Assembly: GCF_900129385.1 (NCBI RefSeq)
Contig: NZ_FQVO01000004.1
Location: forward strand, 1 to 64,000
DNA from: Chryseobacterium takakiae
GTDB taxonomy: Bacteria; Bacteroidota; Bacteroidia; Flavobacteriales; Weeksellaceae
DNA length: 64,000 nt
Direction: 5' to 3'
Part shown: in pieces, positions 61,836-64,000 of the stretch
How positions within the stretch are numbered: position 1 is the stretch's first letter
Layout of the letters: every line of letters starts with the position of its first letter
Program-made: the position numbers and the translations under genes
The notes under the pieces: model-generated
What the model was told of the DNA's origin: nothing
The model's input: only the letters and a program-made list of their open reading frames with translations
The model's database searches: none

Positions 61836-61909
61836 GGCCTCGTGGCGCAACTGAATAGCGCATCTGATTACGGCTCAGAAGGTTACAGGTTTGAATCCTG
61901 TCGAGGTCA
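61836..61909 (+). tRNA. tRNA-Arg (ACG anticodon)
   Basis: Cloverleaf read by hand. Acceptor stem GGCCTCG/CGAGGTC with one G-T pair, D stem GCGC/GCGC, anticodon stem TCTGA/TCAGA enclosing TTACGGC (anticodon ACG, read as ICG for CGN Arg codons), T stem ACAGG/CCTGT with loop TTTGAAT, and discriminator A73. CCA is not encoded. It is followed directly by a terminator and then by recombinase remnants. Confidence 0.97.
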
Positions 61910-61912
61910 CAA

Positions 61913-61955
61913 GACCGACATTTGAAGATTTCACTCTTCGGTGTCGGTTTTTTTA
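61913..61955 (+). terminator. Terminator after tRNA-Arg
   Basis: ACCGACA...TGTCGGT with an inner GAAG/CTTC pairing is followed by TTTTTT, immediately downstream of the tRNA. Confidence 0.75.
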
Positions 61956-62218
61956 TTTCCTAATCCGTTGTTATATTGACAAATACACTGAGGAACAATA
62001 TTCATTTTAGGTGTTTGAAAACTTTTTCCGTCAAATTCGACTTTTTGGGGAAATACTAAACACCCAACCCTCCTTTTTGTTTGTAGATCGCCCTGCTGAT
62101 AATGGTTTGCAAGGGTTTCCATCCCGTCAAGTGCATTTCTATTTTTGTTCTAATGTCAAGTTCCTTGCTATCCGAAACCATTTGCTGAAGTTCCTGTTCC
62201 AATTGTTCAAATATCGCA
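61931..62218 (-). pseudogene. C-terminal remnant of a large serine recombinase
   Basis: The - strand encodes ELQQMVSDSKELDIRTKIE, then after a one-base shift near 62136 NALDGMETLANHYQQGDL, then TKRRVGCLVFPQKVEFDGKS, reaching a stop at 61931. A coiled coil followed by KRR.(I/V)G..FP(E/Q)K..FDGK...T is the usual C-terminal end of resolvase-type large serine recombinases. The catalytic and zinc-ribbon domains are gone, and the 5' end abuts the ABC-transporter remnant. It looks like the trace of an integrated element next to the tRNA gene. Identification is from motif memory, so moderately sure. Confidence 0.65.
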
Positions 62219-62644
62219 GTTGGTGAAGATTATGTAGATAAATCAAAACTTAGAAAAGCTGTAGAAATTGCCAATATCAAGAGTTTATTGAAGATTACCT
62301 TTAAGCTATAATACAAAAATAGGAAACGAGGGAGTCGGTGTAAGTGGTGGACAAAAACAAAGACTGTTCATCGCAAGAGCTGTTTATAAATCCCCAGAAT
62401 ATATTTTCTTTGATGAAGCAACTTCTGCTTTAGATGCAAATAATGAAAAGGTAATTATGGAAAATCTTGAACAGTTTTCCAGAGGAAAGACAGCCATTGT
62501 AATTGCTCACAGATTATCAACTGTAAAACATGCCGATAAAATTATTGTTCTTGATAAAGGGAAAGTTGTGGATGAAGGAAATGAATTGGTAGCTTTAAGG
62601 AGAATATTACAGACTCGTTAAAATCAACTGGATTAGGCAATTAA
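62210..62644 (+). pseudogene. C-terminal remnant of a peptide/bacteriocin ABC exporter (ATPase domain)
   Basis: The pieces in order are NIAVGEDYVDKSKLRKAVEI, then SFIEDLPLSYNTKIGNEG, then the ABC signature VSGGQKQRLFIARAVY, Walker B YIFFDEATSALDA, the H-loop IVIAHRLSTV and the tail LVKNQLELGN. Single bases are missing at about 62285 and 62295 (T runs), and again near 62600, 62622 and 62632 (A runs), so the frame is broken at least twice. All membrane and peptidase (C39) domains are absent. It begins in the middle of the ATPase domain at the junction with the recombinase remnant. In Bacteroidota this tail is typical of C39-type double-glycine peptide exporters, matching the small peptide gene just downstream. 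Confidence 0.85.
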
Positions 62645-62681: not shown

Positions 62682-62689
62682 TATATTTG
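62682..62689 (+). promoter_or_regulatory. Promoter -7 box of the bacteriocin-like gene
   Basis: TATATTTG on +, about 68 bases before the start codon. The -33 region has no perfect TTG. Confidence 0.45.
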
Positions 62690-62757: not shown

Positions 62758-62937
62758 ATGAAAAATTTAAAAAAACTATCAAGACAGAATTTAAGAACAA
62801 TTAAAGGGGGAGCTATGTGTCTTGGTTGTGGGTGTGCTACAAATGGTGCTACAGGTTTATGGAATGGCGCTTGTGTAGTATGTGAAAATAATATTGTTGT
62901 ATTATGCCCAATTCAGCCATGCGAGCTCTGCGGGTAG
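62758..62937 (+). CDS. Bacteriocin-like double-glycine precursor peptide, Cys-rich
   Basis: A 59-residue intact gene. The leader MKNLKKLSRQNLRTIKGG has the hydrophobic spacing and Gly-Gly end recognised by C39-type peptidase exporters. The 41-residue core contains eight Cys (CLGCGC, CVVC, and three near the C terminus, ending CELCG), no Lys or Arg, one Trp and several Gly. Leaders of this form mark a family of bacteriocin-like peptides that I recall as common in Chryseobacterium. No modifying enzyme (LanM, radical SAM, YcaO) is adjacent, and the adjacent exporter is a broken remnant. An AAAAAAAAATAA tract precedes the ATG. Activity (antimicrobial or signalling) is unproven. Confidence 0.85.
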   Translation: MKNLKKLSRQNLRTIKGGAMCLGCGCATNGATGLWNGACVVCENNIVVLCPIQPCELCG

Positions 62938-62957: not shown

Positions 62958-62984
62958 AGAGGGTAATCTTTTTTGATTACCCTT
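62958..62984 (+). terminator. Possible terminator of the peptide gene
   Basis: GGGTAATC (62961-62968) pairs with GATTACCC (62975-62982) across a T6 loop. The trailing sequence is CTTCTG rather than a T-run, so termination would be weak or the hairpin may protect the 3' end. Confidence 0.5.
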
Positions 62985-63089
62985 CTGAACACTTATTGCT
63001 TCAATTGATCAACAGAATAAGATCATTAACATCAGTATAATTGCACAATAACTGTATTTAATAATCTGGTGTGACAAGCTAAATTCGTA

Positions 63090-63321: not shown

Positions 63322-64000
63322 CTAATATCTGACAACTTGCTCAGTCCACGTAGGACCGCTGATATAGAACATACCATTTTCGTACTTGACGGGTTCGATA
63401 CCCATTTGCGGACCCAGTTCCCAAGCTTCGAAGGTTTGACTGTAAGGATATGGTCGTTTTTCGTACATAAAGTAATGACAGGAATTCCATAGATTTCCGT
63501 CCGGACCGATGAATAATGCATTGTGTCCCGTTTCCTGATAAGGATCTTCGGTATCGGTAAACTGCAGATTTTCATAGCCTCCATCTTTTGCCATTTGTTG
63601 TCTATAACCTTTCTTCCGGGTTCCAAAAATAGGTTCCGGAGAAGCGAGTTCCCAAGGTCCCAGAGGATTTTTTGATTTCAGCAAAGCCACTTCATACCCT
63701 CTTGTCCATGTAGAGAAGAACATAAAATAGGTTCCTTCTTTTTTAATGACGAAAGGACCTTCTATTCCCCCAACCATCCATTCCGGCCAGCCTGGCTGTT
63801 TTTTATCTAGGAATTTTTGAATAGGCGTGGTTAATTTTCCTGTTTTTAAATCAATTTTAGCCTGAAACAGTCCATTTCCGCTGCAATAGAGATAGACCTG
63901 TCCGTCCTCATCCTCGAACAAAGTGGCATCATTATTATATTGTGGAGTAAGCGGACCATTAAGCACTTTGTACGGGCCTGTCACTTTATCAGCCGAAAAT
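63322..64000 (-). CDS. GH43 family glycosidase, N terminus outside the window
   Basis: The C-terminal part (about 225 residues visible) of a five-bladed beta-propeller glycosidase, of the beta-xylosidase / alpha-L-arabinofuranosidase group. The frame stays open to the window edge (FSADKVTGPYK), so any GTG or ATG near 63984 is internal. Typical features are YNNDATLFEDEDGQVYLYCSG, with a conserved propeller Asp, VGGIEGPFVIKKEGTYFMFFS, which carries the candidate general-acid Glu in EGPF, and TGHNALFIGPDGNLW, with the family His. It ends SGPTWTEQVVRY. No T9SS tail. Specificity cannot be told from this half. Confidence 0.85.
   Translation of the reverse strand, partial: FSADKVTGPYKVLNGPLTPQYNNDATLFEDEDGQVYLYCSGNGLFQAKIDLKTGKLTTPIQKFLDKKQPGWPEWMVGGIEGPFVIKKEGTYFMFFSTWTRGYEVALLKSKNPLGPWELASPEPIFGTRKKGYRQQMAKDGGYENLQFTDTEDPYQETGHNALFIGPDGNLWNSCHYFMYEKRPYPYSQTFEAWELGPQMGIEPVKYENGMFYISGPTWTEQVVRY

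Follow-up and report, generated by a model that had tools for sequence, protein, structure and literature searches.

An intact eight-cysteine double-glycine peptide gene beside exporter relics in Chryseobacterium takakiae

The peptide gene and its locus

The window, i.e. the whole stretch of 64,000 nucleotides of Chryseobacterium takakiae DNA that was analysed, carries a plus-strand open reading frame of 59 codons (positions 62758–62937, ATG to TAG). Its translation consists of an 18-residue leader ending in Gly-Gly, MKNLKKLSRQNLRTIKGG (62758–62811, plus strand), and a 41-residue core, AMCLGCGCATNGATGLWNGACVVCENNIVVLCPIQPCELCG (62812–62934, plus strand), with C39 cleavage predicted after G18. 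The core contains eight Cys in the layout CxxCxC...CxxC...CxxC, two Glu and no Lys, Arg or His, which gives a net charge of −2. Residues 1–18 matched the NCBIfam model NF047798 (leader_Chryseo, 'bacteriocin-like protein') with 36.9 bits (cut-off 23.5). This score, together with orthologues in three other species that retain all eight Cys, puts the reading frame beyond chance. The original prediction of a double-glycine peptide with eight Cys and no basic residues was thus confirmed, and we regard the frame as a genuine small gene for a Cys-rich secreted peptide. The type of gene was already recognised, as the leader lies above the cut-off of a curated NCBI model that covers genes of this kind. 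The proposal of an undescribed system had to be dropped: NCBIfam already has a named domain for the leader, and published bacteroidetocin loci have a matching architecture.

Two other models fell short. The Pfam family PF10439 (Bacteriocin_IIc) scored 19.5 bits against a gathering score of 27.1, and TIGR04149 (rSAM-modified RiPP) scored 23.1 bits against a cut-off of 25; membership was rejected for both. A profile search of solved structures with the peptide gave no match (best E-value 0.97). AlphaFold2, run on two sequences, returned a model of low confidence (mean pLDDT 56, pTM 0.40).

The predicted TAnnTTTG box (TATATTTG, 62682–62689, plus strand) is present and matches the Bacteroidota box, but it is not conserved. 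In each of the three orthologues, the corresponding site has TTTA in place of the final TTTG, leaving the window as the only one with the box, and a conserved promoter was rejected. The box might be a gained promoter or a chance occurrence. Upstream of the family members, such boxes were only about twofold enriched (37 of 215, with 18.5 expected). Directly past the stop codon lies a hairpin (62958–62985, plus strand), which was found in all four orthologous loci (z = −3.84). It is a possible terminator or 3′ end; no U-tract terminator was found there. The hairpin is palindromic; its loop reads TTTTTT in the window but AAAAAA in each of the orthologues, as though it had been inverted.

Upstream of the peptide gene, a relic of a C39-peptidase ABC transporter was found (62213–62621, plus strand). 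It retains residues of about 583–714 of 729 and its frame is broken, so that the adjacent exporter is indeed dead, as had been claimed. The island is bordered by a tRNA-Arg (acg) gene (61836–61910, plus strand), its integration site. The C-terminal relic of a large serine recombinase (61931–62210, minus strand; 80% to a fragment in genome G147, E-value 1.8e-28) separates this gene from the transporter relic. G147 has the same site at tRNA-Arg (acg), also with large serine recombinase relics in this position. In another species (locus L164), an intact 545-residue relative of the recombinase, carrying the catalytic-domain motif LYIRVSTDEQ, lies by the same tRNA and shares the 348-residue neighbour gene. 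From the tRNA site, the recombinase relics and this intact relative, the locus is best interpreted as what is left of an integrated island after decay. In G020, the peptide unit occupies a different site, and a PF07508 recombinase fragment lies ~2.5 kb away. A plasmid search with the recombinase fragment of the window gave no match.

More generally, large serine recombinases of the genus use tRNA-Arg (acg) (region 61836–62210) for integration, and intact and worn copies lie next to it in several species. The end of the window (63322–64000) holds the 3′ end of a minus-strand gene resembling a glycoside hydrolase.

Orthologues and the state of the gene

The core of the peptide is rare within the family: in 321 family genomes searched, orthologues were found only in G020 (92% identical), G147 (90%) and G144 (86%). 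The query as a whole was matched in 121 of 173 genus genomes, mainly via the leader. Hence, the expected conservation in relatives was found both for the leader, which is widespread, and for the Cys pattern, which is complete in the three orthologues. The genome of C. takakiae itself (G000) contains 14 leader genes, 13 of them at E ≤ 0.001.

In G144 (locus L110), the peptide gene has an intact C39-ABC transporter of 729 residues on one side and an HlyD protein of 406 residues on the other. The other three loci (window, G147 and G020) lack HlyD. The exporter remnants comprise residues 665–722 in G147 and 710–729 in G020; all three relics are 3′ scraps with different breakpoints. The link between the double-glycine peptide and a C39-ABC exporter was therefore seen intact in G144, as a relic in the window and as an intact relative elsewhere in the own genome. 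These loci show that the peptide descends from one encoded between a C39-ABC transporter and the accompanying HlyD adaptor. In the own genome, this export cluster has eroded within an old island at tRNA-Arg, whereas the reading frame of the peptide stayed intact.

The DNA similarity of the locus to five further genomes (G142, G056, G010, G161 and G041) spans the 3′ end of the exporter, the spacer and the leader. For G142, G056 and G041, it ends at base 600 of the query; the Gly-Gly codons end at base 599. The identity with G142 was 0.82 for the exporter, 0.88 for the spacer and 0.82 for the leader, but 0.50 for the core. The slot behind the exporter thus holds differing cores after a common leader. 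No immunity gene was recognisable in the segment shared by the orthologous loci.

The evidence on whether the gene is alive is mixed. Among the four orthologues, 18 substitution events were counted, of which 12 were non-synonymous (14.0 expected, P = 0.17). The absence of both Cys loss and stop codons is less easily explained by chance (P = 0.04). The dN/dS ratio was ~0.5–0.6 with respect to G020 and G147 and ~1.5 with respect to G144. Purifying selection on the core, whose absence would have counted against the original prediction, is thus only weakly supported by these comparisons: the retained Cys and open frames suggest it, while the substitution bias does not reach significance.

The gene could instead be a decaying passenger, i.e. 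what remains of the eroded exporter locus, intact through shortness and recent loss, and not expressed or not exported. This would fit the loss of the exporter and HlyD beside the peptide in three of the four species, the non-significant synonymous bias and the non-conserved promoter box. Moreover, the flanking intergenic DNA is as similar to G020 and G147 (95%) as the reading frame itself. However, the frame and all eight Cys are intact in four species despite the differing breakpoints of the relics. Apart from a difference at the 3′ end in G144, the frame shows no indels in comparison with the three orthologues, whereas the intergenic DNA and the transporter relic show several. Finally, most family members lack a neighbouring exporter and are still intact. 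We consider a passenger unlikely, yet it is the strongest of the alternatives, and we lean towards a live gene that works as set out below.

Export in trans and pairing of the cysteines

Two C39 domains were found in the own genome, on contigs C6 and C20. The end of contig C31 and the start of C6 are joined by an exact 95-nt overlap, which makes them one cluster split by the assembly (C31:17803–20960 and C6:1–3700; loci L107 and L156). Its order is VKOR-thioredoxin, leader peptides, C39-ABC transporter, leader peptide and HlyD. The transporter is 92.3% identical to that of G144 over 729 aa. The own genome therefore still encodes an intact and closely related export cluster that includes VKOR-thioredoxin. 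A search for the leader and for C39-ABC/HlyD genes in the genome and its relatives had been suggested with the original prediction; it found both (the 14 own leaders, the C31/C6 cluster and the G144 locus). The predicted transporter encoded elsewhere now has candidates at C6 and C20, by which the peptide would be exported.

G000, G020, G147 and G144 contain 13–25 leader genes, yet only one or two C39 transporters per genome, so that a neighbouring exporter is lacking for most leaders. The leader gene was absent from nine of the ten genus genomes without exporter and VKOR. From the few transporters for many leaders, and the lack of leaders where the exporter is missing, we infer export in trans. 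Among the departures from the general pattern, G069 has four leaders without an orthologue of the exporter and without VKOR, and G030 has exporter and VKOR without leaders.

We collected 216 distinct precursors from loci matching the query leader; this sample is not a random draw. An even number of Cys was found in 209 of the 216 cores, nearly all with 4 or 6. The core counts were 6 Cys (140 cores), 4 (64), 5 (6), 8 (4), 10 (1) and 1 (1). The four eight-Cys cores are the same number as the window peptide and its three orthologues, and theirs was the only eight-Cys class seen. Redundancy did not account for the pattern. In a set of 95 cores below ~50% identity, 92 of the 94 with two or more Cys had an even number (P = 2e-25), and the parity of other residues showed nothing of this strength. 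After coarser clustering, the modal Cys count was 4 or 6 in 31 of 31 clusters.

VKOR (PF07884) was present in 161 of 173 genus genomes. Of 103 genomes compared, 94 had a VKOR-thioredoxin gene at most 5 kb from the exporter. Exporter and VKOR occurred together in 161 genomes and were both missing in 10; the exporter alone was found in two (G004 and G107) and VKOR alone in none (Fisher P = 1.3e-14, uncorrected for phylogeny, with exporter presence taken from E-values). Among the papers searched, none dealt with leader_Chryseo or with VKOR and bacteriocins in Chryseobacterium. The even-Cys rule and the VKOR-thioredoxin partner favour disulfides over thioethers or metal. Of the three types of link originally considered, disulfides are accordingly the one retained, and no specific support was found for the other two. 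The Cys of the window peptide are most likely paired as disulfides, and pairing by an exporter-linked oxidase is the simplest reading.

A peptide of the radical-SAM or graspetide type, with Cys thioethers or tailoring by the SPASM and ATP-grasp enzymes near the G144 orthologue, is very improbable. Such enzymes do occur upstream of the exporter in G144 (TIGR04193 with 317.9 bits, cut-off 175; a TIGR04192-like ATP-grasp with 183.5 bits, under the cut-off of 230), and the window peptide has the weak TIGR04149 match given above. They are not found beside the three other orthologous loci (window, G020 and G147), and G142 and G056 have a near-identical exporter with VKOR instead. The grasp-with-spasm locus of G144 also has its own, different precursor candidate (L110:15139–15381; enzyme pair at L110:11377–13563), and the even-Cys rule fits pairing. 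Thioethers or graspetide chemistry were rejected as the main reading on these grounds.

Equally doubtful is a metal-binding peptide whose acidic core would hold Cu, Zn or Fe and be exported for capture or detoxification: the CxxCxC...CxxC...CxxC layout and the lack of basic residues, unusual in the family (3% of cores lack Lys and Arg), would suit it, but no metal gene was recognised beside any orthologue, no similarity to solved metal proteins was found, and the leader and the exporter–VKOR setting indicate an oxidising route.

Our preferred reading (probability about 0.6) is that the peptide belongs to a large Chryseobacterium repertoire of disulfide-rich, bacteriocin-like secreted peptides, with export in trans and up to four disulfides. 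The leader would be recognised in trans by the own-genome C39-ABC exporter of the C31/C6 cluster. After cleavage behind Gly-Gly, the core of 41 residues would be exported, and the VKOR-thioredoxin protein would oxidise its eight Cys to up to four disulfides. The mature peptide would then act extracellularly, presumably as an antibacterial agent, with related bacteria as the most likely target.

A broader proposal, to which we give slightly less than even odds, is that one C39-ABC/HlyD/VKOR-thioredoxin machine exports and oxidises ~5–25 dispersed double-glycine peptides, most of them encoded far away. Cores would be swapped behind a fixed leader, and the acidic eight-Cys peptide would be an outlying class that outlasted the loss of its own exporter.

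The lone odd gene can now be read as part of a repertoire of secreted peptides that spans the genus. Of wider interest is the proposed sharing of one VKOR/C39 export machine by many dispersed cargo peptides. The near-absolute even-Cys rule and the near-constant VKOR-thioredoxin lead to a testable prediction, namely that disulfide maturation is coupled to C39 export. It concerns hundreds of peptides that are now labelled only 'bacteriocin-like'. With an intact orphan peptide next to a ruined exporter, the locus offers a natural test of whether export works in trans.

Comparison with known systems

The grasp-with-spasm graspetides and chryseoviridin-type loci (TIGR04192/TIGR04193; PMC8939145) adjoin the exporter cluster in G144, and C39-ABC and HlyD are common to both. 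They differ in that the window, G020 and G147 have no maturase and in that their precursor is a separate one; the maturase pair was seen only upstream of the exporter in G144, not beside the peptide. The resemblance to PF10439 is weak and concerns the leader region.

The closest known system is that of the bacteroidetocins (class IIf). These have a short double-glycine leader and a somewhat basic mature peptide of ~42 residues with four Cys (PMC6671954). Their loci encode a thiol oxidoreductase and a C39-peptidase ABC transporter, and also a five-TM protein (PMC6671954). Their migration is altered under reducing conditions, consistent with disulfides (PMC6671954). The window peptide shares the short double-glycine leader and the Cys-bearing core of about this length, and the logic of a thiol oxidoreductase with a C39-ABC transporter recurs in the C31/C6 cluster of its genome. 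Unlike the bacteroidetocins, it has eight Cys instead of four and is acidic (two Glu, no Lys, Arg or His), and it is a putative bacteriocin. Its own exporter is dead, and VKOR-thioredoxin and C39-ABC stand together at another locus (C31/C6), not next to the peptide gene.

Within leader_Chryseo (NF047798), the leader scores above the curated cut-off, and the peptide is of the same length class with a Cys-rich core; the other cores nearly always have 4 or 6 Cys. The window peptide is therefore ordinary in kind and unusual in detail, as a member of the sole eight-Cys class seen and of the few cores without basic residues.
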